This document shows, piece by piece, positions 16,582-33,733 of a stretch of DNA of 64,000 nt (within the stretch, counting starts at the first letter, position 1; every line of letters begins with the position of its first letter). The stretch spans positions 1,798,001 through 1,862,000 of the forward strand of contig NZ_FSRU01000002.1 in assembly GCF_900142845.1 (NCBI RefSeq), in the 5' to 3' direction. The notes under the pieces are model-generated. The model was given only the letters and a program-made list of their open reading frames with translations. It ran no database searches and was not told where the DNA came from. The stretch comes from Paraburkholderia phenazinium (GTDB taxonomy: Bacteria > Pseudomonadota > Gammaproteobacteria > Burkholderiales > Burkholderiaceae). The position numbers and the translations under genes were made by a program.

Positions 16582-17787
16582 CTACGACTCCTGACCCGAG
16601 CGGCGTGCTTCCAGATAATAAACGGTCACAGCCGCCAGCAACGAAAGCAGACACGCGAGCAACATCATTCCAAACGGGGAATACGCGGCGTTGTGGTCGG
16701 TCACAACAAATCCCGTTGCAGACGAAAACAGGAAACCGCCCGCTATCGTCATGCACCCTGCCAGACCAGAAGCGCTTCCAACCAATCGAGGATGAACCGA
16801 AACCGCTCCGGCATTGGCACATGGACCCGACAATCCATTGCCGACGCCTACCAGCACACAAGGCGCGAGAATCCAGAAGGCTTGCGAGGCGCCAAAAAAC
16901 CAGAACCCCAAACTGGTCAGTGGTCCGATGCATGCCAGAAACCGGCCGAGGACAATCGTTCTCGGAAGCGACAGTCGGCGCGAGTAACGTCCGGACAAGA
17001 AGCTCCCCACCATGAATCCCAGGGTGATGGTACCGATGTATCCGCCAAGCGCCGCCGGCGACAGATTCAGCAATACTTTTGCGGTCAGCGGAACACCAAC
17101 AAGGAACGCGTAAAACGCGCCGGTTGAACATGCGAGGCAGGCAGCGTAACTCCAAAAACGCGCAGAACGCAAAAGTATTGGATACGCACTGAACTGATCT
17201 TTTGCCGACCTGGAAATGTCTACGTTCGTCTCTTCCAGATTGATCCAGCAATACACAAACAACATCGCGCCAGCCGACGTCAGCACCCAAAAAATTGCCC
17301 GCCAGCCGAACATCCCGTCGAGGGAGCCTCCCACAGCAGGACCCAACATGGGCGCAAGCGCGGCAGCCATCGACGCATAACCGATTTTGCTTGCCGCCGT
17401 TTCCTTCCCAAAAGCGTCGCGGACCGCTGCTATCGAGACCGGGTAGCTGGACGTCACGGCAGCCTGGACCAACCGGAACGCAAGGAACGACCAGATGCTG
17501 CTCGACAACGCGCAGCCAATTGAGCCGATAGTGAACAACGCGAGGCTCAGCAAAATGATCGGGCGGCGACCGTAGCGGTCGGATAGCGGCCCCATCAACA
17601 ACTCGAGAATCGCCGATAGTCCAGCGTACCCTGCAAGTGAAAGGCTCATCACCCCGTAATCCACATGCAGGTCGCTACTGATGCCCGGCAACGACGGTAG
17701 AAATATGCTTAACGGAAGAACAGATAACGCGCAAAGAAGAGAGACCGTGACCACGCTCGGAGATGACGTTGACTTTGCAATCTGCAT
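16582..17787 (-). CDS. Bcr/CflA-type MFS drug efflux protein
   Basis: A 401-residue, 12-helix DHA1 MFS exporter. It carries LPSLPGISSDLHVDYG in helix 1, the loop motif GPLSDRYGRRPIIL, and MLGPAVGGSLDGMFGWRAIF (motif C, antiporter-type) in helix 5. Bcr/CflA proteins export small toxic compounds or amino-acid-like molecules. It is divergent from the second acetolactate synthase gene, so it is the natural candidate for product export or self-protection in the adjoining biosynthetic cluster. The cluster's lower GC begins here. Confidence 0.82.
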   Translation of the reverse strand: MQIAKSTSSPSVVTVSLLCALSVLPLSIFLPSLPGISSDLHVDYGVMSLSLAGYAGLSAILELLMGPLSDRYGRRPIILLSLALFTIGSIGCALSSSIWSFLAFRLVQAAVTSSYPVSIAAVRDAFGKETAASKIGYASMAAALAPMLGPAVGGSLDGMFGWRAIFWVLTSAGAMLFVYCWINLEETNVDISRSAKDQFSAYPILLRSARFWSYAACLACSTGAFYAFLVGVPLTAKVLLNLSPAALGGYIGTITLGFMVGSFLSGRYSRRLSLPRTIVLGRFLACIGPLTSLGFWFFGASQAFWILAPCVLVGVGNGLSGPCANAGAVSVHPRLVGSASGLAGCMTIAGGFLFSSATGFVVTDHNAAYSPFGMMLLACLLSLLAAVTVYYLEARRSGQES

Positions 17788-18015
17788 TTTTTCAGTCTTT
17801 TAATCGCTTTCAATAAAGCTCGGCCAATGAACGTGGAAGGTCGCCGCTGCCCGTTAGCGAAGCCCGCTTTCACAAAATATTCAATATGAATCGCGATCGC
17901 TTCTACCCAACTGTGATGACGCTCCGGGCCGACAAGTCGGATCTCAAGCGGATCGCGTCTTGAACATGTGCGCTGCTTGACCCTACAGCTATACATCCGT
18001 AGGATAAACCATTCC

Positions 18016-18030
18016 ACCATCAGTGATGGT
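18016..18030. promoter_or_regulatory. Operator-like dyad upstream of ilvI
   Basis: A perfect inverted repeat, ACCATC-AGT-GATGGT, lies in the 363-bp gap between the divergent efflux and ilvI genes, about 120 bp before ilvI. The rest of this gap shows no convincing gene and no leader rich in branched-chain residues. A regulator that would bind here is not encoded in the cluster. Confidence 0.4.
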
Positions 18031-18150
18031 CCTTTACAAGGCGAACTTAACAAGCTTCGCCAAAGCACTGGACGCGCCGCTTGAACCCGAGCCACAAGCC
18101 CGGCAGAGAGCACCCGATCAATTTTTTGCCGAAAATTCGAAAGGTGAATG

Positions 18151-19914
18151 ATGAATATGCCCAGCGCGGAATTCTCCACGTCGGATACGACTTCCCATCG
18201 CGAAACTGACTCTATCGGCGCCACCGTGCTCATACGCGCATTGGCAGATGAAAATGTCGCGTGCATATGGGGCTATCCGGGAGGAACGGTCCTCTACATT
18301 TATGACGAGCTCTACAAGCAGAGCGAGATAGAGCACATTCTTGTGCGCCACGAACAAGGTGCGGTTCATGCCGCGGATGCCTATGCGCGCTCAACGGGTA
18401 AGGTCGGCGTGTGTCTTGTGACCTCCGGCCCCGGTGTCACCAATGCGATAACCGGTATCGCAACAGCCTATATGGACTCTATTCCGCTAGTCATCATTAG
18501 CGGACAGGTATCTATCGCGGCAATCGGACAGGACGCATTTCAAGAGTGCGACGCCATTGGCATTACGCGTCCCTGCGTAAAGCACAACTTCCTCGTGAAA
18601 GACGTGCGCGATCTCGCCGCTACCGTCAAGAAGGCCTTCCACATCGCGCGTACTGGCCGGCCTGGTCCGGTGCTGATCGACATTCCGCGTGATGTGTCGA
18701 AGACGTCTTGCCAGTACGAGCCGTTGAAGAGCGTTTCGCTGCGTTCGTACAACCCGGTCACGAAGGGTCATTCCGGCCAGATCCGCAAGGCAGTCGATCT
18801 CATCTTGTCGGCCAGGCGTCCGTATATCTACACCGGCGGCGGCATCATCCTCGCGGATGCGGCGCGCGAGCTGAACCAGTTCGCCGATCTGCTCGGCTAC
18901 CCCGTCACGAATACGCTGATGGGGCTGGGCGGCTATCGCGCGAGCGACAGGAAATTCCTCGGCATGCTCGGCATGCACGGTACGTACGAAGCCAACATGG
19001 CCATGCAGCACTGCGACGTGCTGATCGCCATCGGTGCGCGTTTTGACGACCGCGTGATCGGCGACCCGGCGCATTTCTCGTCGGTGCCGCGCAAGATCAT
19101 CCACATCGACATCGATCCTTCCTCCATTTCCAAGCGCGTCAAGGTCGACATTCCGATCGTCGGCGACGTCAAGGAAGTGCTGAAGGAGCTGATCGAGCAG
19201 TTGCAGACGGCCGAGCATGGCCCGGACACCGCGGCGCTCGCCGACTGGTGGAAGGACATCGAAGCCTGGCGCGCCAAAGACTGCCTGAAGTTCGACCGCA
19301 AGAGCGACATCATCAAGCCGCAGTACGTGGTGGAAAAGGCGTACGAACTGACCGACGGCAATGCCTTCGTGTGTTCGGACGTCGGCCAGCACCAGATGTG
19401 GGCGGCGCAGTTCTATCGCTTCAACAAGCCGCGCCGCTGGATCAACTCCGGCGGTCTCGGCACGATGGGTTTCGGCCTGCCGGCGGCGATGGGCGTGAAG
19501 ATGGCGCACCCGGACGACGACGTGCTCTGCATCACGGGCGAAGGCTCGATCCAGATGTGCATCCAGGAGCTCTCGACCTGCAAGCAGTACGAAACGCCGA
19601 TCAAGATCATTTCGCTGAACAACCGCTATCTGGGCATGGTGCGCCAGTGGCAGCAGATCGAATACAGCAAGCGCTATTCGCATTCGTACATGGATGCGCT
19701 GCCGGATTTCGTGAAGCTCGCCGAGGCTTACGGCCACGTCGGCATGCGCATCGAGAAGACGGCGGATGTCGAGCCGGCGCTGAAAGAAGCGCTGCGCCTG
19801 AAGGATCGCACGGTGTTTCTCGACTTTCAGACCGATCCGACCGAAAACGTCTGGCCGATGGTTCAGGCCGGCAAGGGCATCACGGAGATGCTGCTCGGTT
19901 CGGAAGATCTGTAA
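18151..19914 (+). CDS. ilvI: Acetolactate synthase large subunit, variant (putative resistant target copy)
   Basis: A 587-residue thiamine-diphosphate enzyme with the catalytic Glu in VRHEQG, the FAD-domain GARFDDRVIGDP and the ThDP motif GEGSIQM...NNRYLG. It condenses two pyruvates, or pyruvate with 2-ketobutyrate, in branched-chain amino-acid synthesis. Most of it, especially after about residue 190, reads like the housekeeping Burkholderia enzyme. The N-terminal third differs: Thr46 in YPGGT and Ser121 in GQVSIAAIG. These positions are 75 residues apart, exactly like plant Ala122 and Pro197, where substitutions give resistance to imidazolinones and sulfonylureas. No ilvC follows, so this is not the usual ilvIHC operon. 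The start at the second ATG was chosen for spacing to AAGGTG and the usual MNMPSAEF N-terminus. Confidence 0.85.
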   Translation: MNMPSAEFSTSDTTSHRETDSIGATVLIRALADENVACIWGYPGGTVLYIYDELYKQSEIEHILVRHEQGAVHAADAYARSTGKVGVCLVTSGPGVTNAITGIATAYMDSIPLVIISGQVSIAAIGQDAFQECDAIGITRPCVKHNFLVKDVRDLAATVKKAFHIARTGRPGPVLIDIPRDVSKTSCQYEPLKSVSLRSYNPVTKGHSGQIRKAVDLILSARRPYIYTGGGIILADAARELNQFADLLGYPVTNTLMGLGGYRASDRKFLGMLGMHGTYEANMAMQHCDVLIAIGARFDDRVIGDPAHFSSVPRKIIHIDIDPSSISKRVKVDIPIVGDVKEVLKELIEQLQTAEHGPDTAALADWWKDIEAWRAKDCLKFDRKSDIIKPQYVVEKAYELTDGNAFVCSDVGQHQMWAAQFYRFNKPRRWINSGGLGTMGFGLPAAMGVKMAHPDDDVLCITGEGSIQMCIQELSTCKQYETPIKIISLNNRYLGMVRQWQQIEYSKRYSHSYMDALPDFVKLAEAYGHVGMRIEKTADVEPALKEALRLKDRTVFLDFQTDPTENVWPMVQAGKGITEMLLGSEDL

Positions 19915-20020
19915 CGACGGTTTTGCGTTGGCTTCGTCATGCGCGCTTTCAAAAAAAGCGTAGGCGGACGAAGCGGCGCCAGCCGGCTCGCATACATCAC
20001 ACATCTGGAAGAAGCGAAAC

Positions 20021-20272
20021 ATGAGACACATTATTTCCGTCCTGCTGGAAAACGAACCGGGCGCGCTCTCGCGTGTGGTCGGTCTGTTCTCCGCTCGCGG
20101 GTACAACATTGAAACCTTGACGGTGGCCCCGACCGAAGAGGATGCGACGCTATCCGATATGACGATCACATCAATCGGCTCGGATGAAATCATCGATCAG
20201 ATCACCAAGCAACTAAACCGCCTGATCGACGTCGTTCGGGTTACAACTGTTCAGGAGAGGATGCCTGGATAG
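20021..20272 (+). CDS. ilvH: Half-length acetolactate synthase regulatory subunit
   Basis: The protein has 83 residues, against about 163 for normal IlvH. It contains only the N-terminal ACT domain, starting [20 protein letters not shown] with [13 protein letters not shown], and stops after [12 protein letters not shown]. The second domain is absent and no remnant is seen downstream. From family knowledge (recalled work on truncated E. coli IlvH), the ACT half can still activate the catalytic subunit while losing valine feedback. It follows the variant ilvI by 106 bp, so it probably serves that enzyme. Confidence 0.8.
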
Positions 20273-20334
20273 ACCGGATCGAGCACTTCGCAAGTGTCGT
20301 TCCGCTAACCGGGCAGATTTCCGATAACGCCACC

Positions 20335-20365
20335 AGTGAGGCGAACAGCACTTCTTCGCCTCACT
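20335..20365. terminator. Hairpin between convergent genes
   Basis: A perfect 11-bp stem, AGTGAGGCGAA / TTCGCCTCACT, with a 9-nt loop, lies between ilvH and the convergent PurD-like gene. No long T-run follows on either strand, so it may work as a weak or factor-assisted bidirectional terminator. Confidence 0.5.
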
Positions 20366-20375
20366 CCCCCGCCCT

Positions 20376-21665
20376 TCACTCCAGAACGGACAGCTCGCCG
20401 ATATCGCGCCGACAGTAGAGTCCGTTGTACTGAACTTTGCCTATGTTGCGATAGACTCGCGTCCGTGCCTCTGCGAATGAGCGACCTCGCCCTACTATCG
20501 TCAACACTCGGCCGGAGGCCACGGTCGGAAGCGGGTTAGCACCGATATTTTCGGCTAGAGGCCAAACCTCGCTTTCCACGGAACCTAGTCCAAAGATTGT
20601 TTCCCCGACCCCCTCATCGGAGAAAGGGTAACCGGGTGCGGTTGTCGTGACCGCCACGCTATAGGGCTCGTCATGCTCCCACTCCAAAACCAGCTCGCTT
20701 AATTTTTGATCGAGTACGGCTGACACCAGAACCAGCGCGTTGGATTTCAATAACGCCAGCAACGTCGGGAACTCCGGATTTCCGGGTCGTACGTTGTACT
20801 CAAGCGCCACCGGCCCAGCATCGGTCACCATGACGCCGATGTAAAGAATGTATCGGTAGTCGATTCCCTCTTGCCGGAAACCTCGCATTGTCGGCTCGAT
20901 AATTCTCGACTTGATTTGATCGAGTAACGTGCTGTCCCACTCTTTCGCAACAGCCACCGACCCAATCCCCGCAGTGTTCGGCCCACGATCGCCCTTAAAT
21001 ATTCGCTTGTAGTCTCTCACCATCGGCAACGCCTGATAGCTTGCCCCATCCACCAGAAGGTGCAGAGAAAATTCGCGGCCCTCAAGGCGCTCTTCGATGA
21101 CGACCTCATGCGGGGCACCGATCTCCTCGAGATGGTCAAAAATGGACTGAGTCGCAGCCAGTGCTTCCGGCAAAGAATCCGGTACACAGCAACTGTATTT
21201 GATGTCACTTAGATAGCAGTCTGCCTTGACAACGAATCGTCGACCGCCCCAGTTGTCGATTAAATACTGCCTTGCTTCTGACGAGTCGCGGAATGAAGCA
21301 CTGGCCGCGGAAGCGACGCCGTGGCGCTTCATAAACGCCTTGGCCCTGACCTTGCTGTTCTCCAACGAGATCGTTGCCTCCGGCAACCCGAACACCCGGA
21401 ACCCCGCATGCTGGAAAGCCTCGTAATTCCCCGCCTCGAGTTGCTCCAGACTGAGCAGAACGACAGTCTCGACGCCATGACGCGATGCCACCTCGATCGC
21501 GTCGGAGACGGTACGCACGCGCACCGTATGCGGTGACGATTCCAGATAGAGATTGCTCCCGGTGATGCAGCACAGCAGACCATCATCCGAACTGTGTCTC
21601 CAACACTGCTCGCAAAACGCCTGCTCTTTAGAATTCCCTTCGCCAAACAGCATATATTGAGTCAT
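20376..21665 (-). CDS. PurD-like ATP-grasp ligase
   Basis: A 429-residue ATP-grasp protein whose motifs match glycinamide ribonucleotide synthetase: VVKAD (145-149), VIEERLEGREFS (189-200), GDRGPNTAG (225-233) and LEYNVRPGNPE (288-298). PurD enzymes join an amine to glycine via an acyl-phosphate. Here the usual AAGKGV-type nucleotide loop after VVKAD is replaced by CYLSDIKYSC, and the RFGDPE motif is RPGNPE, so it has diverged from purine synthesis. It probably forms an amide bond in the cluster product (inference). The start at MTQYMLFGEG has GAGG about 10 nt upstream; a longer in-frame reading is unsupported. Confidence 0.72.
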   Translation of the reverse strand: MTQYMLFGEGNSKEQAFCEQCWRHSSDDGLLCCITGSNLYLESSPHTVRVRTVSDAIEVASRHGVETVVLLSLEQLEAGNYEAFQHAGFRVFGLPEATISLENSKVRAKAFMKRHGVASAASASFRDSSEARQYLIDNWGGRRFVVKADCYLSDIKYSCCVPDSLPEALAATQSIFDHLEEIGAPHEVVIEERLEGREFSLHLLVDGASYQALPMVRDYKRIFKGDRGPNTAGIGSVAVAKEWDSTLLDQIKSRIIEPTMRGFRQEGIDYRYILYIGVMVTDAGPVALEYNVRPGNPEFPTLLALLKSNALVLVSAVLDQKLSELVLEWEHDEPYSVAVTTTAPGYPFSDEGVGETIFGLGSVESEVWPLAENIGANPLPTVASGRVLTIVGRGRSFAEARTRVYRNIGKVQYNGLYCRRDIGELSVLE

Positions 21666-21838
21666 TGTTACATCCGCCTCAGATCGGGGTGAGCAAAACG
21701 CGACGATAAAATGACGTGAGCAAAGCGCGCTGTTCACAGGACCCCCGAATTCGCGGGCCCTGCTTTCGGGAGTACTCGTACGTAGTCGCAGCGGACCTGA
21801 GAGAGACCGTAACCGGCGACGGCTGTGAGTGAATGTGC

Positions 21839-23092
21839 CTATGCGGCTACCTCAAGCACCGCATCGGAAAAGCGCGTCAGTCCATCGTCAAGAAGTGAGG
21901 TTTCGATTGTCAGCGGAGGCATCAACTTCAATGTCTCATCATGTGGGCCGCACCGCTCCAACAGCAGTCCGTTACGGATGCAGCGCTTGCGAATCTCTTC
22001 CGCCATGAGGCCACTCGGACAGCGGAGACCTTGCATCATGCCCCGCCCGAGAGGAACCCATCCCGTAGCGGCGCCGAGCGCCCTTAAGCGGGTCTGAATG
22101 AGTTGCGCCCGCGTCGCAATCTCCGAGGCGAATTGTCCACCAGACCAGAACTTGTCTATCGCGACCCGCCCGGTGACAAACGCGTGATTGTTTCCGCGAA
22201 ACGTCCCATTGTGCTCACCCGGGCGCCAAACGTCGTATTGAGGGCGCATCAAAACCAGTGAGAGGGGCAGGCCGAATCCCGAGATTGATTTCGCCAGCAC
22301 AACGATGTCGGGAACAATTTCCGAGGGTTCGAAGCTAAAGAAGGCTCCTGTCCTCCCACAGCCCGCCTGTATGTCGTCCACGATCAGCAAGGCGTCCAGA
22401 CTGGTGGCTAAAGCCCGGAGTCTGCGCAGCCAGTTGGACGAAGCCACATTGAGCCCTCCCTCTCCTTGAACCGTCTCTACGATAAAAGCAGCCGGGGAGT
22501 CGATTCCACCGGAGGGGTCGCGGAGCATTCGTTCCGCGAGATCTAACGTGTCGACACCGTCCAGATAGCCATCGTATGGGAGCCTCGTTACACCGTTAAG
22601 TTCAACGCCGCCACCTCGACGATTGTCTCGGTTTCCCGTGGCCGCCAACGCTCCCAGGGAAACGCCATGAAACCCATTCGTGAACGCGATCACGTTAGAC
22701 CGCCCCGTAACGTTCCTTGCCAATTTCAACGCCGCCTCCACGGCGTTAGCGCCGGTAGGGCCGGTAAATTGGATCTTGTAGTCGAGCTGCCGGGGAGCAA
22801 AGATTTTGCTCACCAGGCTCTCGATGAACGACGTCTTGGCGCTCGTATGGAGGTCGAGCGAACTCGCTACGCCATTGCTTTCGATATATTGAAGAAGTGC
22901 CTTCTTCATGTCCGGGTCATTGTGACCGTAGTTCAACGACCCCGCGGCGGACAGGAAGTCTATGAATGTCTCCCCCGTCGACAGGCAAAGCGTGGCGTTT
23001 TCCGCCGAGGAGATTTCGAAAGGAAACGCCCTGCAATAGCTTCGCGCCTCTGATTCGTAACGTTCGTAGCATTCCGGATAGGCAGCAACCAC
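21839..23092 (-). CDS. EctB-like diaminobutyrate aminotransferase (class III, PLP)
   Basis: A 417-residue class III aminotransferase. The N-terminal signature ESEARSYCRAFPFEI and DFLSAAGSLNYGHNDPD match L-2,4-diaminobutyrate:2-oxoglutarate aminotransferases (EctB/Dat). Further sites are GPTGANAVEAALKLAR, NGFHGVSLGALA, the PLP Asp region IVDDIQAGCGRTG, and the PLP Lys in LAKSISGFG. It probably makes 2,4-diaminobutyrate from aspartate semialdehyde, giving an amine for the amidinotransferases. The start was set at a GTG with AAGGAG 8 nt upstream; an alternative GTG at 23116 lacks a ribosome site. It is divergent from the main operon. Confidence 0.78.
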   Translation of the reverse strand: MVAAYPECYERYESEARSYCRAFPFEISSAENATLCLSTGETFIDFLSAAGSLNYGHNDPDMKKALLQYIESNGVASSLDLHTSAKTSFIESLVSKIFAPRQLDYKIQFTGPTGANAVEAALKLARNVTGRSNVIAFTNGFHGVSLGALAATGNRDNRRGGGVELNGVTRLPYDGYLDGVDTLDLAERMLRDPSGGIDSPAAFIVETVQGEGGLNVASSNWLRRLRALATSLDALLIVDDIQAGCGRTGAFFSFEPSEIVPDIVVLAKSISGFGLPLSLVLMRPQYDVWRPGEHNGTFRGNNHAFVTGRVAIDKFWSGGQFASEIATRAQLIQTRLRALGAATGWVPLGRGMMQGLRCPSGLMAEEIRKRCIRNGLLLERCGPHDETLKLMPPLTIETSLLDDGLTRFSDAVLEVAA

Positions 23093-23363
23093 GTCGTCTT
23101 CTCCTTGGATGTTCACCTTGTCAAGGTCCAGATCAATTCACCGCCTGCTAGTCTCTGGATCAACGCTTTTAAGGATTCACCATCTCTTACCATTCATTAC
23201 CCGATCTTTAACAATTAAACATCTTAGTCATCCTACATATTATTTTCATTATGCAAGCTGGGTAAATGCGATTGCTTCGGTTTACTTATTGTATGTGATG
23301 ACATATCGTACACGCACGCAAACAAAAATGCACACGAACATGCGACACACGAGGAGTCATATA

Positions 23364-23435
23364 GTGCTCAACGCATACCCTTCTCCCGTACGGTCGCAGC
23401 CCATCTGGAGACTGTCCCACCGCCTCTTTGGTTAG
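23364..23435 (+). CDS. Candidate 23-residue peptide ORF
   Basis: A GTG start preceded by GAGGAG at a 7-nt spacing opens a 23-codon frame ending in TAG at 23435. The peptide starts MLNAYPSPVRS and ends HRLFG. It lies alone in the divergent promoter gap, upstream of the operon that contains a PGM1-type peptide ligase. Known PGM1 systems add an amidino acid to a ribosomally made peptide, so a precursor-peptide role is possible. A regulatory leader or a chance ORF is as likely. Evidence is limited to the ribosome site and position. Confidence 0.25.
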   Translation: MLNAYPSPVRSQPIWRLSHRLFG

Positions 23436-23536
23436 GTTAAGTCAGCGTCGGTGTGCATTCAGATCGCATGTATAGCTCGGTCGAGCCGGTGACCTGTATT
23501 CGTTATCCGGGCACGAACGGATCGCCCTAACTTCTT

Positions 23537-23557
23537 ACTTTGCATGCGAAGCAAAGT
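23537..23557. promoter_or_regulatory. Dyad upstream of the main biosynthetic operon
   Basis: A perfect inverted repeat, ACTTTGC-ATGCGAA-GCAAAGT, lies about 150 bp before the SIS gene. It could be an operator or an RNA hairpin in the leader. Confidence 0.4.
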
Positions 23558-23708
23558 GAGGGAAGCGTCGTCGTCTCTTCGTTGCGGCGACCCATCTGAT
23601 GTTGTTGTTGGTAGCAACCGGCAGACCGGCTCCGGCCTAAGCGAGTCGAGTTTCGCCTCGACAGGTAGCGAAGTTCGTATTCATCGCCAATCTAACCATG
23701 GAGTTGAA

Positions 23709-24893
23709 ATGAGTCTCGAAGCCAGGAACATGCAACCTCGTATTGCCCGCCTCGCCCCGTTCCTCGGGTCGCCGTTGTTTGAGAGCACCCTCTGGGGCCA
23801 TGAGTACACCCTGGAGGGTCTCAACCCCGACCTCAGGCGGCGAATCGAAGACGGCACCTTCAAGAGGATCGTCTTCTATGGCATGGGGTGTTCGTCGGTC
23901 GTTTCAGACATCGTGAAAGGCTTCTTTCTGACGCACGAAGTCCCCATCACGGTTGACGTCGTCAACGACTACGATACCGATTGGTTCATCAGCAAAAATG
24001 TACTGAAAGATCCGGCGACGCTTATCTTCATCGTCTGCTACAGCGGGTGGTCTGTGGAGCCGTGTCTGTTTTACGATCGGATGAAAGCGCTCACGGGCAA
24101 CAAGAATCTGATCGTTTTAACCGGCGGCGGCAAGATCCAGAAGCTCGCACAAGAGGACGGCGGCTCCGTCATTCAGTACAAGCTCCGGCATGCAGACCGC
24201 GAATATCCGCTCTACCATGTCCAGCAGTTTTTTTCGATTTTTCTCGACCTGTTCCACAAGCTAGGCATCACAAAGACGGCTTACGAAAGCGAGCTCAAAG
24301 AGGCCGTAAGCTATCTGCACACCACCTTCGACAGCGCGTACATCGAGAAGGCCAGGGCGATCGCCAGCAAGCTTTCGGGAAGCCGCATCGCGTTTCTTGC
24401 CACGGCGAAGTGGTATGTACAGCTTCTGAAGCAAACAACCATGTTCTTCAACGAAATTGCGATGGTGCCCTCGCATCGCAACTTGCTGCATGAGTTTTCC
24501 CATACCGAAGTCGCCGCCTATTCGAACCCCTCGGAGAAGCAAGCAATCGTCGTTTTCCTCGATAGCGAGGACGACGAATACACAAAGTCGAAAGTGGCGA
24601 CACTTCATAAGCTGTTCGGCGATAAAAGCATTCCGCAAAACAAGAACATTGAGATCGTCCAGATAGATATCGATCAGGACGGCTTTTTCAAGAAATTCTA
24701 TACAACGCACTTCTTCATGGTCTACGTCGCTTTCTTCCTTGGCGTGCAGAGCGACGTCGAGGGCCGCGACCTGATATCGATTGCGGCGAAGAACCCCTGG
24801 TGGAGCGCTGAGTCGATCTCCGCACATCCCAGGTGCGTTGACATTCCCGGGCAGCTCAGCGACGACATTCAAAAGAGTATCGAACTGGTTTGA
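23709..24893 (+). CDS. SIS-domain protein, phosphoglucose/phosphomannose isomerase-like
   Basis: A 394-residue protein with two SIS-type halves. The first half has FYGMGCSSVVSDIVKGFF and CYSGWSVEP, corresponding to the GMGGS and YSGNTEE sugar-phosphate loops; the second has RNLLHEFSHTEVAAY, corresponding to the HNE catalytic motif of bifunctional phosphoglucose/phosphomannose isomerases. The loops are altered, so the substrate may be unusual. It opens the main plus-strand operon; GGAG lies 5 nt before the ATG at 23709. A longer in-frame reading from 23544 lacks support. Its role in the pathway is unclear; a keto/aldo isomerisation is a guess. Confidence 0.65.
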   Translation: MSLEARNMQPRIARLAPFLGSPLFESTLWGHEYTLEGLNPDLRRRIEDGTFKRIVFYGMGCSSVVSDIVKGFFLTHEVPITVDVVNDYDTDWFISKNVLKDPATLIFIVCYSGWSVEPCLFYDRMKALTGNKNLIVLTGGGKIQKLAQEDGGSVIQYKLRHADREYPLYHVQQFFSIFLDLFHKLGITKTAYESELKEAVSYLHTTFDSAYIEKARAIASKLSGSRIAFLATAKWYVQLLKQTTMFFNEIAMVPSHRNLLHEFSHTEVAAYSNPSEKQAIVVFLDSEDDEYTKSKVATLHKLFGDKSIPQNKNIEIVQIDIDQDGFFKKFYTTHFFMVYVAFFLGVQSDVEGRDLISIAAKNPWWSAESISAHPRCVDIPGQLSDDIQKSIELV

Positions 24894-25067
24894 TATCGGT
24901 TTCCCGGGCCAGCGGATTCGTCTGGCCCGGGGTTCCCACGTCGAGCGCTTTCCAGCCTGCTTGTCGAATCCTGCGAGCGTGTGGACCCGCGACCGATCGC
25001 GGCTCATACGTGCGGACCGCGATGGTGAGATGCCACCGCGAGCATATCTCGTACCGGAGAACTGTTG

Positions 25068-25904
25068 ATGCAAAAGACCCCTTTAGCCATTCTCACTGGT
25101 GGGAGCCGCGGCATAGGCCGGGATCTGTTGCGACTGTTGCTTGAACAAATGGATGTTCTAAACCTCTCGCGCTCTGCTATCGAGCCTGAAGTTACCAAAG
25201 GTGCTCAACACCAACTCTTCCATCTCGGTTGCGACTTTGTCGATGTTTCGCAAACCACCGACTGTCTGGACCAGTGGCTAGCGGAACATCCCTCTCATAC
25301 AGTGAGAACCTTCATATCGTGCGCGGCCACCCTGGACTTGGGTTGGCTCACGAAGACCGAAGCTTTGCCGGAGAACTTCGACAGGGCCTTTCACATCAAT
25401 GCGCTAGCCCCGATTGCACTCAGTTCTCTTATCGGTCGCCTCAAGCGATTTGACGAAACAGGTTCGCGCGTCATTTACGTGACGTCATCCCTGGCGCGCC
25501 CTCTCCCTGCTCTCACGTTTGCAGGTCTTGGGCTATACAGCGCGACAAAATCGGCGCTCGAGCGGCTCGCGCAGGTCCAGACACGCGAGTTCAGTCTGTC
25601 CGATCGACCCGTCAAGGTTGCCCTGGTACATCCCGGCATCGTCGCCACCGATATGCAGCGCGAGCTTCGAACCAGCGAACTCCTGGACGGCGCGTTCACG
25701 GCGAAGACCGCTGGCCTGCCGCCATACAAAGAGGGGGACTGGGACCACCAGCCCCCCGAGACCGCCATGAGAACCATCTCGCCTCGCTTTGCAGCTGAAT
25801 TCCTGAACTGGATCGCACTGAGAGACCTTGCGCTTCTCGATCCGTACTACGACTTCTACACCTCTAGCGCGTTCCATAACGACGTGTTGCAGACCGCGAG
25901 GTAG
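25068..25904 (+). CDS. Short-chain dehydrogenase/reductase
   Basis: A 278-residue classical SDR. Motifs are LTGGSRGIG (NAD(P)-binding TGxxxGIG), ISCAATLD in place of NNAG, VTSSLAR (catalytic Ser region), YSATKSALERLA (YxxxK) and HPGIVATDM. It resembles sepiapterin reductase/benzil reductase-like SDRs and probably reduces a carbonyl in the cluster pathway. The start is ATG at 25068 with GGAGA 7 nt upstream. The C-terminus is longer than usual (YYDFYTSSAFHND). Confidence 0.75.
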   Translation: MQKTPLAILTGGSRGIGRDLLRLLLEQMDVLNLSRSAIEPEVTKGAQHQLFHLGCDFVDVSQTTDCLDQWLAEHPSHTVRTFISCAATLDLGWLTKTEALPENFDRAFHINALAPIALSSLIGRLKRFDETGSRVIYVTSSLARPLPALTFAGLGLYSATKSALERLAQVQTREFSLSDRPVKVALVHPGIVATDMQRELRTSELLDGAFTAKTAGLPPYKEGDWDHQPPETAMRTISPRFAAEFLNWIALRDLALLDPYYDFYTSSAFHNDVLQTAR

Positions 25905-25962
25905 CGATGTTCGTTACGGCGTTACGGCACGCGATAAAACCTACTCTCGACGGACCGCAAAG

Positions 25963-27429
25963 ATGAAGCGTTTTGCCAATGACATTCTTGATCTGGAATA
26001 CGACGGCGACCGTACGATCGTCTTCATTCCGAGCATTAGCTTTGACGGCCTGACGAAGAAGTACCTGATCGGACTAAACTGCTTCGAAGAACGAAACTTA
26101 TACTACCTTGCGTGCCTCACCCACATCAAAACGCGCTTCGTTGCCGTGCTCGCCGATGCAGTTGATGACGCATTTATCGACTACTGCGTAGACCATGTCG
26201 CGTCTGCGAGAGGAATAGACCGCGCTTCGCTGCGCGAGCGGTTTGAGGTGGTCAGGGTGTCGACCCACGGTGACGAACACCTGTCGAGGGCGATTTTGAG
26301 GCAGCCCGACGTGCTCGAAAATTTGCGGGCAAAAGTTCGACGCGCCATCAATCCCATCATCGACTTTTGGCTCGTCTCGCCAGAAGAAATACAGTTGGCG
26401 GCTTTACTGGATTGTCCCTACTACGGACTTCCTGAAGGCGCGCTTCAGTTCGACAACAAGTCGAATGCCCGAGATCTGTTCAGAGAGATCGGGTTGAGAA
26501 TTCCGCGTGGCGAAGAGCACGTGAGCAGCCCGCAGGAGGCATGGGCTGCCCTAAGGCGGGTAGCAGAGCAAAGTGGCGCCGATGAGTACCTCATCAAGCT
26601 AAATTGCGAAGAGGCCGGAAAAGGAATTGCCATTGTGGGTCGCGAATCGATATCTCAGCCGTTCGATGCGTTTCTGGACCTCATCAAAGTACCGAAGAGC
26701 ATTCCGGTTGACGAATTCCTGCAAGCCCTTTCCTCCCAGGGCGCAACGGTCGAGGAATTCATTTCTGCGCCCATCAAGGCGTGTCCGAGCGTGAAGATGG
26801 AGATTCTGACCGACGGAAGCGTGCGGAATCTCGCCACTCACGACCAGGTGCTGAGTGGTCTGGCCTATTCCGGATCGCGTTTTCCGGCAGACGAGAGTTA
26901 TCGTGTGGATTTGATCCGGATTGGATATCGCGTGTCGGAGGCCGCCAGCAAAAAGGGCGCAAGAGGTATCGTATCGGTCGACTTTCTCGCGACAAAAGAC
27001 ACGCCGGACGAGCCGTGGATCCTGTGGGGCATGGAGATTAACGCCCGAAAAGGCGCCACGACTCACCCCTATTACTGGACGCGGTGGCTCACCGATGCTG
27101 CCTATTCGGCGGACACGGGCAAGCTAACCTGTCCTGCTGGCGAGACCGTGTATTGCGCCTCGGAGTTCTTTTCCGACCCCCAGTTGCATCTCGTCGCTCC
27201 TTCATTCATCTTAGATGACCTAAAGAAGTCTGGGCTGGACTATCAGCACCGTTCGAGATCCGGTGTTTTCGTCCATATGCTGAGTAGCGTGCAGCGGTTC
27301 TCAAAGGTTGGCGCTACCGTCATCGCCCGGGACAGCGCGGAGACCGACAGACTGTCTCAGGCATTCAGCGAGCAGTTGAAGCGCCTCGCTGACCCGTACC
27401 GATCTTCTCTCGACAATTTTCCCGCCTAG
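25963..27429 (+). CDS. PGM1-type ATP-grasp peptide ligase
   Basis: A 488-residue protein recognised as an ATP-grasp ligase of the pheganomycin PGM1 type. A pre-ATP-grasp domain (FIPSISFDG at 21-29, FEERNLYYL at 41-49, VSPEEIQLAALLDCPYYG at 138-154) leads to KSNARDLFREIGLRIPRGEE (166-185). The ATP-grasp core follows, with KLNCEEAGKG (212-221), VEEFI (263-267), SVDFLATK (338-345) and MEINARKGATTHPYYW (357-372), the family's metal- and carboxylate-binding block. PGM1 couples a guanidino non-proteinogenic amino acid to the N-terminus of a peptide. Two amidinotransferase genes downstream fit the same chemistry. The exact substrates here are unknown. Confidence 0.72.
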   Translation: MKRFANDILDLEYDGDRTIVFIPSISFDGLTKKYLIGLNCFEERNLYYLACLTHIKTRFVAVLADAVDDAFIDYCVDHVASARGIDRASLRERFEVVRVSTHGDEHLSRAILRQPDVLENLRAKVRRAINPIIDFWLVSPEEIQLAALLDCPYYGLPEGALQFDNKSNARDLFREIGLRIPRGEEHVSSPQEAWAALRRVAEQSGADEYLIKLNCEEAGKGIAIVGRESISQPFDAFLDLIKVPKSIPVDEFLQALSSQGATVEEFISAPIKACPSVKMEILTDGSVRNLATHDQVLSGLAYSGSRFPADESYRVDLIRIGYRVSEAASKKGARGIVSVDFLATKDTPDEPWILWGMEINARKGATTHPYYWTRWLTDAAYSADTGKLTCPAGETVYCASEFFSDPQLHLVAPSFILDDLKKSGLDYQHRSRSGVFVHMLSSVQRFSKVGATVIARDSAETDRLSQAFSEQLKRLADPYRSSLDNFPA

Positions 27430-27474
27430 ACCATAGAGTCCCTACGTTCGGCTAATCCACCACTTTTCATTCCG

Positions 27475-28944
27475 ATGACAACGACTATTGACGATAGATC
27501 AGACGAGTCCTATTGGCCGAACTTTATCGACGGAGCGTATTGCAATGGTGGAGCCGGACGTATTGCTGTCAAGAATCCCGCCACGGGAGATGTCCTTGCC
27601 GAACACGCGCTAGCGGACGCAGCCGATGTGGACCGGGCCGTTCAGGCCGCACACAGAGTTCACCGCTCCGGACAGCTCGCGAAGCTACACCCCATGGATC
27701 GCGGCCGCATGGTCCGGGGTATCGGCAAGTACCTCAGCGACAACATGGAATCCGTCAAGCGGTCGATCACGTTGGAGCAGGGAAAACCGCTTTTCGAATC
27801 TGAAGCCGAAATCAAACTTGCAATCCGCCTGTTTGAATACTTCGGTTCGATGGCCGAATCGCTGGAAGGACGATCCGTTCCTTGCGACGACACCCGCTTC
27901 GATTTCACCGTGTACGAACCCTTGGGCGTGTCGGCTCAATTTATGCCGTCTCACTACCCTATCTACATCCCCGCGCGCGCCCTGTCGGTCGCCCTTGCGA
28001 CGGGGAATGCCTGCGTCATGAAGACCTCCGAGCTCGCGCCCATTTCGACTATCTGGCTCGCACGGGCCGCCGAGGCGGTTGGCTTTCCCCCTGGCGCAGT
28101 CAATATTTTATGTGGCCGCCGTGAAGATGCAGGCGTGGCTCTATCGACCCATCCGGACATCAATCATCTTGTGTTTATAGGCCAGCAACATTGCGCGACG
28201 GAGGTTCTTTCGCAATCGGCCAGAAACATCGTCCCAAGCATCGTGGAAGTGGGCGGGACATCCCCAACGCTCTTCTTTGAGGACGGCGATCTCGACGCCT
28301 TCATCTTCGAAGCGAGGATGGGCTCATATTGGAACGCGGGACAGTTCTGTTGCGGCGTGTACCGCGTCATCGTCCACGAGTCGCGGTACGAGGAGCTCAT
28401 CGATGGAGCGGTGGCGCTTGCCGAGTCGCTCGAGGTAGGCCCGGGAATCGAGAGCGGAGACTTCCGCCCCTACATGGGCTCCATGGACAGCAACGAGCAG
28501 CTTCAGAAGGTTTTGGAAATCGTTGCCGATGCCAAGCTCAACGGCGCGAAATGTGTGGCCGGCGGCGAGCGATTGAAGCGAGCTGGCTTTTTCATGAAAC
28601 CCACCGTCTTGCGTGACGTCGATCCGTCCATGAGAGCGGCGCAAGAGGAAGTGTGGGGACCCGTCATGTCCGTCCTGAAGTTTCGCGATGAAGAAGAGGC
28701 GTATCGCCTCGCGAACGGCCCGCGGCATAGCGGTCTCATGTGTGGTGTGTTCACCAAAGATCTTGGGCGGATGATGCGCGCCGCACAGCGGATACGTGCG
28801 GGACATATCGTCTCGAATCAGACCTTGATTGGAGGAGCAGAGTTACCTTTCGGAGGCTTCAATCGTGCGGGGTACGGTAGCTTGAAAGGGCGCGAAGCCC
28901 TTATGGGCTATGTCCAGCGGAAGAATGTACTTCTCAACTTATAG
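27475..28944 (+). CDS. Aldehyde dehydrogenase superfamily protein (atypical)
   Basis: A 489-residue NAD(P)-dependent aldehyde dehydrogenase. The general base Glu258 lies in VEVGGTSPTLFFEDGDLD and the catalytic Cys292 in WNAGQFCCGVYR; EEVWGPVMSVLKF and ELPFGGFNRAGYG are also present. Two usual motifs are altered: PWNFP is PSHYP (158-162) and the cofactor-loop GSTxxG is IGQQHCATEV (235-244). It should oxidise an aldehyde made in the cluster to an acid, but cofactor handling may differ. It is in line with the ligase upstream and the amidinotransferase 11 nt downstream. Confidence 0.78.
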   Translation: MTTTIDDRSDESYWPNFIDGAYCNGGAGRIAVKNPATGDVLAEHALADAADVDRAVQAAHRVHRSGQLAKLHPMDRGRMVRGIGKYLSDNMESVKRSITLEQGKPLFESEAEIKLAIRLFEYFGSMAESLEGRSVPCDDTRFDFTVYEPLGVSAQFMPSHYPIYIPARALSVALATGNACVMKTSELAPISTIWLARAAEAVGFPPGAVNILCGRREDAGVALSTHPDINHLVFIGQQHCATEVLSQSARNIVPSIVEVGGTSPTLFFEDGDLDAFIFEARMGSYWNAGQFCCGVYRVIVHESRYEELIDGAVALAESLEVGPGIESGDFRPYMGSMDSNEQLQKVLEIVADAKLNGAKCVAGGERLKRAGFFMKPTVLRDVDPSMRAAQEEVWGPVMSVLKFRDEEEAYRLANGPRHSGLMCGVFTKDLGRMMRAAQRIRAGHIVSNQTLIGGAELPFGGFNRAGYGSLKGREALMGYVQRKNVLLNL

Positions 28945-28955
28945 CGAGGATGAAC

Positions 28956-30059
28956 ATGAGCGAAACAATTGAATATCATTCCGGTCAATTGGCGCAGCAA
29001 GAGGCAGTCCCGGCGGGAGTCTGGAGTTGCAACGAGTGGGATCCGCTTGTAGAAGTCATCGTTGGAAATCCGTTTAACGCTCGATTCCCCTACCGGGACA
29101 AGAGCACTCACATAGCGGAGTACGCAGGCAAGCCGTTTGCTTCAATCCCTCAAGGTCCGTTTCCTCAGCAGATCATTGAGGAAACCGAAGAGGATCTTGG
29201 GGAGATGGTGGAGGTGTTCACCAAGCTTGGCGTGTCGGTAAAGCGTCCGCAGACCTGGGATCACGAGCGGGAATTTTCCACCACGTTCTGGAAAACCGAG
29301 GGATATTACAACTATTGTCCGCGCGACATTCTTTTGGTCGTTGGCGATCAGATCATCGAAACACCCAACGCCATCCGTGGGCGATCGCAAGAAACATATA
29401 GCTACCGGGAGATTCTTCTCGAGTATCTCAAGGACGGCTCACGCTGGTTTAGCGCGCCCAGGCCGATGCTACTTGATTCGTTATTCGAAGTAGATCACCA
29501 GAAGCCCGTGCCGCGAAACGACGAGCCGGTGTTCGATGCGGCAAATGTGATTCGATTCGGCAGAGACCTCCTGTATCTCATCAGCTCGACGGGAAACGAT
29601 CTTGGCGCGCACTGGCTTCAAACAGTCCTTGGGAAGGACTTCAAGGTACACTGCTGCCGGCTCAACTACTACGGAAGTCACATCGACACGTCAGTCGTCG
29701 CGCTTCGCCCGGGTCTTTTGCTTTGCAATCCTGAACGTGTTAACCGGGACATGCTTCCTGACATTTTCCGCGATTGGGAGGTGATTTTCAGCCCGCCGAT
29801 GGTCGGAGCAGACAGATTCGAGAGCGACTATTTGTCGAAGTGCATCGGCAGCAACTGGATCGATATGAATCTTTTCAGTCTGAGCCCGGATCTGGTCATG
29901 GTCGATCGCGATCAACTTCCGTTGATCAAGCTGCTGGAGAGCAAGAAGATCGAAGTGCTTCCAATGAAGTTGCGACATTCCAGGATGTTAGGGGGAGGCT
30001 TCCACTGCACGACGCTGGATACCCGAAGAAAAGGCAAGATGGAATCGTACTTCGATTGA
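28956..30059 (+). CDS. Arginine:amine amidinotransferase 1
   Basis: A 367-residue member of the glycine/inosamine/CyrA amidinotransferase family. The catalytic triad is complete: Asp194 in FDAANVIRFGRD, His242 in GSHIDTSVVALRPG and the nucleophile Cys351 in GGGFHCTTLDTRRKG. The enzyme moves the amidino group of arginine onto a primary amine, giving a guanidino compound and ornithine. Diaminobutyrate from the EctB-like enzyme is a plausible acceptor. The start at MSETIEYHSG was chosen because GAGGA lies 5 nt upstream; an ATG at 28950 overlaps that site. Confidence 0.85.
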   Translation: MSETIEYHSGQLAQQEAVPAGVWSCNEWDPLVEVIVGNPFNARFPYRDKSTHIAEYAGKPFASIPQGPFPQQIIEETEEDLGEMVEVFTKLGVSVKRPQTWDHEREFSTTFWKTEGYYNYCPRDILLVVGDQIIETPNAIRGRSQETYSYREILLEYLKDGSRWFSAPRPMLLDSLFEVDHQKPVPRNDEPVFDAANVIRFGRDLLYLISSTGNDLGAHWLQTVLGKDFKVHCCRLNYYGSHIDTSVVALRPGLLLCNPERVNRDMLPDIFRDWEVIFSPPMVGADRFESDYLSKCIGSNWIDMNLFSLSPDLVMVDRDQLPLIKLLESKKIEVLPMKLRHSRMLGGGFHCTTLDTRRKGKMESYFD

Positions 30060-30169
30060 CTAGCCGCCGGGACCGCGCAATGTTTCAGATAGGCTGCTTC
30101 GCATCGCCTGCCGTAACCTAAGGCGTGGTTTCACAGCGTGTGGAGCAGCCCTCACACCGAGGCATCTCA

Positions 30170-30421
30170 ATGACGCGGAAAACGCCTCAAACAGATCGGT
30201 ACGGCAGCGTGGTACTACACATCGGGCGCGAGATGTTTTTACTCTCACAGTGGCATGAAGGCGAGTTACCCGAGTGCGGGTTCCTACTCCCCGGACATCA
30301 CGTGGGCATACTCTGCGAACCGGTTGGTCGGACGCGCAATGTTCAATTGAGTTCATCCACCCTGCGAGCACTGACGATAGTGTTCCTTGCTGGAACCTTT
30401 GGCCCATCACACTCGCGATAG
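30170..30421 (+). CDS. Candidate small protein between the two amidinotransferases
   Basis: An 83-codon ORF starting MTRKTPQTDRYGSVV, with GAGG about 8 nt upstream of the ATG. Its stop lies 5 nt before the second amidinotransferase start, as expected for translational coupling, and it fills an otherwise empty 367-bp gap in a tightly packed operon. The stretch SVVLHIGREMFLLS and ELPECGF recalls, weakly, the pattern of MbtH-like proteins, but the conserved Trp residues are missing. A precursor peptide for the PGM1-type ligase is another option. No homologue was recognised; chance is possible. Confidence 0.35.
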   Translation: MTRKTPQTDRYGSVVLHIGREMFLLSQWHEGELPECGFLLPGHHVGILCEPVGRTRNVQLSSSTLRALTIVFLAGTFGPSHSR

Positions 30422-30426
30422 GAAAT

Positions 30427-31608
30427 ATGTCCAGGATCAATAGCCACAACGAATGGGACGCGTTGAAAGAAGCCGTCGTGGGTACCGCAACCGGGACCGT
30501 CGGTACGCTAACCTGGCGCAAGCCAGGACCGATCCCGGAGCGGCTCTTCGATCAAGGGATTGCGATTGCGAAGGCGGCCTCCCCTCAGTGGTACGTCGAC
30601 GAAGTGGCAGAAGACCTGGATAATCTGAGTTCGATTCTCCGTCAGTTTGGCGTTGTCGTTCATCGCCCGGAGCCCTTCGATTTTTCAGCGCTATGTGCCA
30701 CACCGTTTTGGTCAACAACGAGCAACAATCTGTACAACGTGCGCGACCTTAACCTGGTCGTGGGAAACACCGTTGTCGAAAGCCCCTCATATGGTCGTAG
30801 CCGATTGTACGAAACCGCGGGGCTCTATCCCATCTGGTATCGGTATCTGGAAGAAGGCTTTCGGTGGATTGCGGCGCCCAAGCCGTTGCTCAACTATGAG
30901 GCCAGGCTGCCGTACTTCAAAGATGGGGTGGATCGAACCATCACGGACGAGGACGTGAAACACCGTCGACTATCCGACGGGCGGCTCGAGACGCTTCATA
31001 GACTCGCAGAAAAAGAGATCCTGTTTGAGGCCGCAACAGTCTTGAGAATGGGGAAAGACCTGCTCTTTCTCGTATCTTCTTCGGGAAATCGCCTTGCCTT
31101 GAATTGGCTTCGCGCCGTCCTGGGTGACGAGTACACCGTACATGAAACATCGGATATCTATCGCGCCGGTCATATCGATTCGACCGTCATGTGCCTTCGC
31201 CCCGGCTTGGTACTTCTCAACAGCGCGCGCGTGAATGAGCACAATTGTCCCGGAATCTTTAAAGCGTGGGACAAGCTCTACTTTGAAGAAGTGGAGCCGA
31301 TTCCTCAGGCGGAGTTGGAGTTTCACAAGCACGTCAGAGAACCGGCGGCAATGCAACTGGAGAGCCTTGGCTTCCAAAGCAACCTAAGGCAGATGTCCTC
31401 TCCCTGGATCGGCATGAACCTGCTGTCGCTCGACCCCTCTACCGTGATAGTCGACGAGCGGCAGACACGCCTGATACGCGAACTGGAACGGCACAAATTC
31501 ACCGTGATTCCGACCCGGATGCGTCATGCCCATACTCAGTGCGGCGGCATTCACTGCGCGACGCTTGATACGGTTAGAGAAAGCAAGCTGGAAAGTTACT
31601 TCGACTAA
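30427..31608 (+). CDS. Arginine:amine amidinotransferase 2 (variant active site)
   Basis: A 393-residue amidinotransferase paralogous to the upstream gene. His249 (AGHIDSTVMCLRPG) and Cys377 (CGGIHCATLDT) are kept, but the position of the catalytic Asp is Glu201 (LFEAATVLRMGKD). Extra residues around 160-195 (DGVDRTITDEDVKHRR) and 285-315 distinguish it from paralogue 1. It may have another acceptor, add a second guanidine group, or have weaker transfer activity. The start is MSRINSHNEWD; a longer in-frame extension crosses the gap and is unlikely. Confidence 0.82.
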   Translation: MSRINSHNEWDALKEAVVGTATGTVGTLTWRKPGPIPERLFDQGIAIAKAASPQWYVDEVAEDLDNLSSILRQFGVVVHRPEPFDFSALCATPFWSTTSNNLYNVRDLNLVVGNTVVESPSYGRSRLYETAGLYPIWYRYLEEGFRWIAAPKPLLNYEARLPYFKDGVDRTITDEDVKHRRLSDGRLETLHRLAEKEILFEAATVLRMGKDLLFLVSSSGNRLALNWLRAVLGDEYTVHETSDIYRAGHIDSTVMCLRPGLVLLNSARVNEHNCPGIFKAWDKLYFEEVEPIPQAELEFHKHVREPAAMQLESLGFQSNLRQMSSPWIGMNLLSLDPSTVIVDERQTRLIRELERHKFTVIPTRMRHAHTQCGGIHCATLDTVRESKLESYFD

Positions 31609-31678
31609 CAGCAGGACTCCCTACGAATACCTCATGTTCATGCACGGCGCCTCAGCACTCGTTCGGTGACAGGAAAGC

Positions 31679-32578
31679 CTACATCAGGGCAATTTGGGCG
31701 AGTCCGCACAACATGACGGCAGTGCCAAATAACTTGGGCCCGGAAACGCTTTCTTTAAGGAGAAGAATCCCAAACAGAGTCCCGACGGGTATGGAAAGCT
31801 GACGCAGTGCGACGATCTGGCGAACGTCTGCGCCGGTCGCCATGGCAATCAGAACTAGGCCGTACGTTAGCGTCATCGCGACACCAGCCAGGACCGCGTT
31901 CTGACGCTGCGTTGCCCAGATGGTTTCGACGGCCCGACGTTCGCGCGCGATGTAACGTAACGGCAAGATCGCCCAGATCACGATCGCATAGGCTTGAATA
32001 ACCGTATAGGTCAGTCCTGCCGTCAATGCATTGAAGCCGTGCTGACGCATAAGATCGAGGGCCGCCTTGTCTGCAATCGAGTATCCGACAGTGCCTGCCA
32101 CTGCCAGGAGCGCAAAGCCAAAAGCCGGCGTGAGGTACGTAGCGAGCCGCAAAGAGCGCACGTTGTTCAGCGGAAGCACAAACGTTCCCGCTACTACGAG
32201 CACTATTCCGATGAAGACGCCTGGGTGAAGCGTGGATCCACCCAACGCCGCATTGGCGACGACGGCAACCAGTGCAACCGGCAGACCTCGCACGAATGGA
32301 TATAGAACGCTCATGTCGCCATTGGAATACGCCCAGGCGAGTCCGCCGAGATAGATCAACTGAAAGAATCCGGAGACGATCAGGAGCAGCCAAAAGGTGA
32401 TGGGCAGATACCAAAGATTGGGTAAGCCCCAGAAGAGAACTGGTGAGAACAAAAGACCGCCGCTGCCAACGGCAAACACAAAAAAGGCCAGTGATGGTGA
32501 CTGCTTCTTTCCGAGTAGATTCCAGCCTGCATGGAGAAACACTGATGTGACGGTGAGTGCCAGTGGGATTGCGTTCAA
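31679..32578 (-). CDS. EamA/DMT-family transporter
   Basis: A 299-residue protein with about ten hydrophobic helices, two EamA halves and the typical end GTLFGILLLKESVSGPKLFGTAVMLCGLA. DMT-family members often export amino-acid-like metabolites, so this is the second candidate exporter of the cluster and marks its right side. No ATG fits: the start is read as TTG (LNAIPLALTV) with GGAGG 4 nt upstream. It is convergent with amidinotransferase 2. Confidence 0.75.
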   Translation of the reverse strand: MNAIPLALTVTSVFLHAGWNLLGKKQSPSLAFFVFAVGSGGLLFSPVLFWGLPNLWYLPITFWLLLIVSGFFQLIYLGGLAWAYSNGDMSVLYPFVRGLPVALVAVVANAALGGSTLHPGVFIGIVLVVAGTFVLPLNNVRSLRLATYLTPAFGFALLAVAGTVGYSIADKAALDLMRQHGFNALTAGLTYTVIQAYAIVIWAILPLRYIARERRAVETIWATQRQNAVLAGVAMTLTYGLVLIAMATGADVRQIVALRQLSIPVGTLFGILLLKESVSGPKLFGTAVMLCGLAQIALM

Positions 32579-32767
32579 TTTTCCTCCATAGACAACCGGC
32601 GCGCCGAAGATGCATGAAACGGCGCCTCGTGGAATCCCATCCCTATGATTGCAACTTGATTTGCATAGGTGCACGAAAGTGTTGTGGATTCTTTCTTTGT
32701 TCGGTAGAGCGTGCTGGATTCTCGATCTAAAATGCTCGCATGTTCAGTGCCAACATTCAAGCCATAT

Positions 32768-33652: not shown

Positions 33653-33733
<81 letters not shown>

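Follow-up and report, generated by a model that had tools for sequence, protein, structure and literature searches.

A gene cluster of Paraburkholderia phenazinium with a duplicate acetolactate synthase altered at inhibitor-site residues

Gene content of the locus

The window analyzed here is a 64,000-nucleotide stretch of Paraburkholderia phenazinium DNA (contig NZ_FSRU01000002.1, positions 1,798,001 to 1,862,000) from a genome of 8.5 Mb in three contigs. Between 16.5 and 32.7 kb the window contains a block with a G+C content of ~0.53–0.59, compared with mostly 0.60–0.68 elsewhere in it, and a further dip to 0.58 occurs at 38–41 kb. A preliminary description, made from the sequence and its open reading frames (ORFs), had pointed to this lower-GC block and to an unusual gene set within it. 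Profile and structure matches confirm that the block encodes two ATP-grasp ligases, two amidinotransferases, the diaminobutyrate transaminase EctB, a short-chain dehydrogenase (SDR), an aldehyde dehydrogenase (ALDH), a SIS-domain protein, a major facilitator superfamily (MFS) exporter, and the large and regulatory subunits of acetolactate synthase (ALS), ilvI and a short ilvH (Table 1). The spare ALS is altered at known herbicide-resistance residues, which suggests a natural ALS inhibitor as the product of the cluster.

Table 1. Features of the block and its edge. Coordinates are window positions and depend on the starts chosen; the start of the PGM1-type ligase was set as in its relative P0001.
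Feature	Position	Strand	Supporting match
MFS exporter, Bcr/CflA-like	16582-17787	-	Pfam MFS_1 8.6e-50; TIGR00710 198.1 bits, just below cut-off 200.9
ilvI, ALS large subunit, proposed tolerant target	18148-19914	+	TIGR00118 847.8 bits vs cut-off 538.35
ilvI segment unlike the housekeeping copy (codons 29-223)	18232-18816	+	DNA mismatches per codon block
Short ilvH, 83 amino acids, ACT part only	20021-20272	+	TIGR00119 positions 1-78 of 158, 97.3 bits, above cut-off
PurD/GARS-like ATP-grasp ligase	20376-21665	-	GARS_A 7.1e-46; purD model TIGR00877 261.8 bits, below cut-off 288; PurD relatives in PDB
EctB, diaminobutyrate transaminase	21839-23116	-	TIGR02407 570.2 bits vs equivalog cut-off 552.2
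SIS-domain, phosphoglucose-isomerase-like protein	23709-24893	+	PF10432 5.3e-9, above cut-off
SDR	25068-25904	+	PF00106 2.4e-19
PGM1-type ATP-grasp peptide ligase	25963-27429	+	PGM1_C above cut-off; BesA structure 8yi6 2.6e-39
ALDH	27475-28944	+	PF00171 3.5e-125
Amidinotransferase 1, StrB1-like	28950-30059	+	1bwd 3e-108
Amidinotransferase 2, StrB1-like	30427-31608	+	1bwd 2.4e-72; no equivalent found in the Robbsia cluster (L013)
EamA-like exporter, cluster membership doubtful	31679-32674	-	TIGR03340 7.3e-52, below Pfam and NCBIfam cut-offs
tRNA-Pro, edge of variable region	33657-33733	-	ARAGORN

A duplicate ALS with substitutions at inhibitor-site residues

Scanning the genome with TIGR00118 gave 21 matches, two of them above the cut-off: a copy on contig 3 and the cluster copy. 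Both of the two TIGR00119 matches exceed their cut-off and correspond to a full ilvH beside the contig 3 ilvI and the short ilvH beside the cluster ilvI. Because a full ilvIH pair is present on contig 3, the cluster ilvI is a duplicate; the possibility that it is the strain's sole ALS, which the preliminary description had raised as an argument against a resistance role, is thereby rejected.

Alignment to Arabidopsis ALS places residues 47, 122, and 181 of the cluster IlvI at positions 122, 197, and 256 of the plant enzyme, whose numbering we take to be the chain index plus 85; this offset fits the mutant chain 7tzz, which has Thr in column 197. At these three positions the cluster IlvI contains Thr, Ser, and Arg, vs. 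Ser, Pro, and Lys in the housekeeping enzyme. Statements attributed to published papers here and below refer to the sections of those papers covered by our literature searches. The structure of a P197T variant has been described (PMC9188596), positions 122 and 197 belong to a list of eight herbicide-resistance sites, the changed residues line the substrate-access channel of ALS (PMC9917167), and K256 is a named inhibitor contact (PMC11173721). In yeast, mutations of Pro192 account for 75% of clones resistant to HB-35018, the product of the fungal sdt cluster, and Lys251, located in the motif RPGPVLVDLPKD, is a likely attachment site of this compound (PMC12947280). The equivalents of these two yeast residues in the cluster IlvI are Ser122 and Arg181, respectively.

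A comparison set of 183 ALS proteins besides the window's own was assembled from two region searches, taking the best 120 of 8000 in each. All three changes are found in two partial members of this set, P0160 from B. vietnamiensis and P0166 from B. ubonensis, and also in the pieces of a broken ilvI from Robbsia andropogonis. Among the matches listed, none of the 182 other close ALS sequences (the other 181 and the strain's housekeeping copy) combines the three. Taken singly, Thr47 occurs in 0 of the 181 rows with a residue at that column, Arg181 in 0 of 182, and Ser122 in 1 of 182 (P0220, without Thr47 or Arg181). P0166 retains the Trp of the QWQQ motif, as judged by eye.

We defined a cluster-specific residue as one common to P0160, P0166, and Robbsia and present in at most two other sequences, with columns 28–409 covered. 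From column 28 onward, eleven columns qualify (34, 47, 122, 124, 137, 181, 189, 202, 208, 209, and 210), and the window copy holds the specific residue at four of them, namely 47, 122, 137, and 181. Assuming equal odds for every position in columns 28–409, and thus as a guide only, the chance of finding two classical herbicide sites among the four kept positions is P ~0.0008, and it falls to P ~1e-5 for three hits when K256, added afterwards, is included.

Thiamine diphosphate enzymes of the ALS family catalyze carboligations, and the altered channel might let the cluster ALS join pyruvate to some other acceptor, forming a building block of the product. The placement of the substituted residues along the access channel (PMC9917167) agrees with such new chemistry. 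However, codons 224–588 of the window gene encode exactly the housekeeping protein and the regulatory subunit is kept, so that ordinary ALS work fits better, and we consider the new-chemistry explanation quite unlikely.

Mosaic structure of the cluster ilvI

The cluster and housekeeping IlvI share 563 of 587 residues, with the 24 substitutions all confined to residues 29–223. The corresponding DNA shows 0 mismatches in 81 bases for codons 2–28, 86 in 477 for codons 29–187, 4 in 78 for codons 188–213, 16 in 30 for codons 214–223, and 6 in 1095 for codons 224–588 (99.5% identical). Near-identity with the housekeeping locus also spans ~80 bases upstream of ilvI and approximately the first 28 codons of ilvH, beyond which ilvH diverges. 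With its differences confined to codons 29–223 and its flanks identical or 99.5% identical, ilvI has the appearance of a mosaic left by conversion. This is most simply explained if the housekeeping locus has converted the gene pair except in the central part of ilvI and at the distinctive end of ilvH. The catalytic RHEQ motif and the entire C-terminal part of the cluster IlvI are unaltered.

In a tree of codons 28–187 (34 rows, without Robbsia), the window copy groups with P0160 and P0166 at a support of 100/99, and the same group plus one Robbsia piece is recovered for codons 91–187 (35 rows) at 97/97, with a bootstrap that had not settled. Over codons 224–350, no residue separates the window copy from the strain's own housekeeping enzyme, and P0160 and P0166 show full identity with five of the 40 rows sampled, all five of Burkholderia type. 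The latter identity, being one of proteins, may reflect conservation alone, and host-by-host conversion is therefore shown in DNA for the window only. P0160 and P0166 are both partial sequences; assemblies that break off in DNA common to the housekeeping copy would account for this and agree with a mosaic.

The short ilvH, also predicted in the preliminary description, is a real gene with an 82-amino-acid counterpart in Robbsia. Its product may loosen feedback control, size by itself being no proof. An alternative role for the pair is precursor supply, in which ilvI and the short ilvH would form a feedback-insensitive ALS raising acetolactate, 2-ketoisovalerate, or a branched-chain amino acid for the product. 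That IlvH retains only its ACT part, here and in Robbsia alike, suits this explanation, as does a catalytic enzyme that looks intact and is nearly the housekeeping one. It does not predict the changes at positions 122, 197, and 256, the unaltered RHEQ motif and C-terminal part count against it, and no further branched-chain pathway gene is present among the cluster ORFs scanned; we regard precursor supply as unlikely. Neither it nor a new carboligation would predict that inhibitor contacts are what conversion spared.

Occurrence and genomic context of the cluster

Plasmid p3 of Robbsia andropogonis BLB1 (L013) carries a homologous cluster in the same order and orientation, with 67–91% identity. 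Its genes encode the MFS exporter, the broken ilvI, the 82-amino-acid ilvH, and the GARS, EctB, SIS, SDR, PGM1, ALDH, and amidinotransferase 1 proteins; neither a second amidinotransferase nor an EamA-like gene was found in this locus. The Robbsia ilvI is fragmented over different reading frames and contains an in-frame stop, and insertion-sequence genes are located inside and beside the cluster. As in the window, ilvI lies between the MFS and GARS genes. This shared site in two genera argues against an ilvIH copy that boarded a mobile element by chance and has been drifting since, as does the concentration of the kept specific residues at inhibitor sites. Such a passenger would accord with the recombination between the cluster copy and the housekeeping gene and with the broken Robbsia copy, but on balance we think it very improbable.

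Relatives of the cluster ligase at 76–79% identity are present in B. gladioli, B. ubonensis, and B. vietnamiensis. The B. ubonensis ligase (P0003) and ALS (P0166) both report a longest contig of 165,889 bases, and for this reason they are probably on one contig. The ligase is rare: a search of 398 Burkholderiaceae species genomes located it in 1, 144 same-genus genomes gave 2 matches (one of them limited to 51 residues), and 398 Pseudomonadota genomes gave 3, of which one is distant and one a fragment. The SIS protein was found in 1 of 398 genomes. A genome-contig search with the single ligase sequence found no relative, and a search with a ligase alignment (21 of 39 hits) found four loci at 32–37% identity.

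Rhizobium sp. Root1203 (L017:7781-12446) contains the SIS protein (73% identity), the SDR (44%), a PGM1-type ligase (37%), and a TauD-type oxygenase, and this locus also includes a Tn3 transposase. A search of the Root1203 genome, run without a positive control, gave no amidinotransferase match; the best ALS of this strain, at 54% identity, lies on another contig. Since Root1203 has the SIS–SDR–PGM1 set without an amidinotransferase match or a close ALS copy, this set may be a core unit, and the ALS may mark the amidinotransferase-bearing version, as inferred from one genome. The Root1203 set is perhaps a simpler relative of the pathway. PGM1-type ligases at 32–37% identity were also seen in three loci of Patescibacteria-group genomes (L014, L015, and L016), whose neighbors gave no further match when compared with the genes of this cluster only.

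In 11 of 11 same-genus genomes, similarity to window positions 1–38000 starts within 82 bases of the tRNA-Pro gene and runs rightwards only (pieces of at least 150 bases; ~18 kb on the other side of the tRNA included per genome), so that the cluster occupies a variable region adjoining a tRNA gene. Three direct-repeat families occur in 15.0–34.2 kb, none of them paired at the block ends as attachment repeats. Of 15 phage integrase matches in the genome, none lies in the window, and the nearest is >100 kb away.

Remaining genes of the block

The MFS gene has a 74% identical counterpart in the Robbsia cluster. The PGM1-type ligase exceeds the cut-offs of PF18105 (35.6 vs. 22.5 bits) and PF24923 (49.2 vs. 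27), corresponding to an ATP-grasp plus a PGM1 C-terminal domain. The GARS-like protein is a relative of PurD and is not filed as PurD because it falls below the equivalog cut-off. For the SIS protein, there was no solved structural relative at E 0.01. Neither amidinotransferase reaches a Pfam or NCBIfam cut-off; both align with 1bwd or 2jdx at an HC near the C-terminus and at an H-x-D motif, which we take to be the catalytic Cys and His.

Of the two exporters in the preliminary description, both genes are present and the membership of one is in doubt: the EamA-like gene has no match in the related loci L012–L017 and may for that reason lie outside the cluster. A metallophosphoesterase gene at 32711-33580 was not counted as a member, with matches in 15 of the 21 genomes searched (its own included) and ≤55% identity in the others. 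A 568-amino-acid minus-strand ORF opposite ilvI was rejected as a gene, having no Pfam or NCBIfam match. Among the ORFs scanned (14–37 kb), there are no type III polyketide synthase, nonribosomal peptide synthetase (NRPS), radical SAM, or C-methyltransferase genes.

Comparison with known systems

The fungal clusters pts (pterrespiramide A, PMC12616698) and sdt (PMC12947280) likewise contain a duplicate ALS inside a biosynthetic cluster, and the pts copy has been shown to confer resistance (PMC12616698); the HB-35018 sites described for sdt are those matching Ser122 and Arg181. These are fungal polyketide synthase (PKS)/NRPS clusters producing tetramates, whereas the present cluster is bacterial, has no NRPS or PKS gene among the ORFs scanned, and carries a regulatory subunit with its ALS. 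Pheganomycin-type clusters (PMC8939145) share the combination of a PGM1-type ligase and amidinotransferases, but have the type III polyketide synthase, NRPS, radical SAM, and C-methyltransferase genes that are not seen here. The substrate of PGM1 is a guanidinoacetic acid (PMC8939145).

The inosamine-phosphate amidinotransferase StrB1 (1bwd) is the closest solved relative of both amidinotransferases, but no cyclitol or glycosyltransferase genes were seen beside them. The sole significant solved relative of the PGM1-type ligase is BesA, a propargylglycine–glutamate ligase (8yi6), and since it scores 127 bits against a cut-off of 750, the ligase is not a BesA orthologue. The gvg cluster for formylaminooxyvinylglycine (PMC8064604) is another scattered, horizontally spread cluster for a plant-active amino acid, with an amidinotransferase in some strains, but it has a different gene set, and the main text searched makes no mention of ALS.

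ALS copies as resistance genes in fungal clusters, and PGM1 ligases with amidinotransferases in pheganomycin-type clusters, are already known. Our searches of the open PMC literature, a body that excludes most subscription papers, turned up neither their combination in a bacterial cluster nor any bacterial cluster marked by an ALS, nor the present gene set, in agreement with the preliminary description, which knew of no described cluster of this kind.

Proposed product and mechanism

We think it probable that this horizontally moved, NRPS/PKS-free cluster makes an inhibitor of the ALS channel, with the cluster ilvIH as a tolerant replacement target and the MFS protein as its exporter. The product would be a small molecule that probably carries an amidine or guanidine on an amino acid or a short peptide, a prediction drawn from the enzyme families. 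Judging from those families, EctB would supply 2,4-diaminobutyrate, the amidinotransferases would transfer amidino groups from arginine to amines, the two ATP-grasp ligases would form the amide bonds, and the SIS, SDR, and ALDH proteins would shape a further, unnamed building block. The compound would then block ALS at the binding site of the sulfonylurea and imidazolinone herbicides in the substrate-access channel, and would be exported by the MFS protein. In the producer, the cluster IlvI with its ACT-only IlvH would replace the inhibited housekeeping ALS and allow branched-chain amino-acid synthesis to continue.

As a predicted function, self-resistance to an inhibitor of the ALS channel has good support from the sequence, and this half of the earlier interpretation has gained ground: the ALS is a duplicate, is linked to the gene set in Robbsia, is altered at inhibitor-site residues, and is otherwise mostly close to the housekeeping enzyme. 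From the substitutions we infer that the cluster enzyme would be tolerant and that the product would bind at the channel.

Several observations weigh against this proposal. The broken ilvI suggests that the ALS copy is not needed in Robbsia now, and amidinotransferase 2 is missing there; in Root1203, SIS–SDR–PGM1 occurs without a close ALS copy. The probable ALS–ligase linkage in B. ubonensis comes from a single observation, the equal longest contigs, and P0160 of B. vietnamiensis is a putative cluster-type ALS, assigned from its residues. The metagenomic P0220 carries one of the three changes by itself, the Ser in place of Pro197. Beyond column 409 only one cluster-type row reaches, and the specificity tally stops there. 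Finally, P197 changes do not lower sensitivity to all herbicide classes (PMC9188596).

A wider scenario, which we hold tentatively and with slightly less than even confidence, is that an NRPS/PKS-free guanidino compound binding the ALS channel is passed among plant-associated Burkholderiaceae along with its own tolerant ALS, with conversion repeatedly refreshing the gene from the host copy and selection preserving the segment that contains the inhibitor sites.

ALS is the target of >50 commercial herbicides (PMC12947280), and the natural ALS inhibitors in the literature covered are fungal. A bacterial ALS copy with changes of the Pro197Ser and Ala122Thr types would show that a herbicide site is used in nature, and such a cluster would point to a new inhibitor scaffold whose target is named from sequence. 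The mosaic further suggests a general route to resistance residues, namely to search a duplicated target for the stretch that gene conversion has not overwritten.

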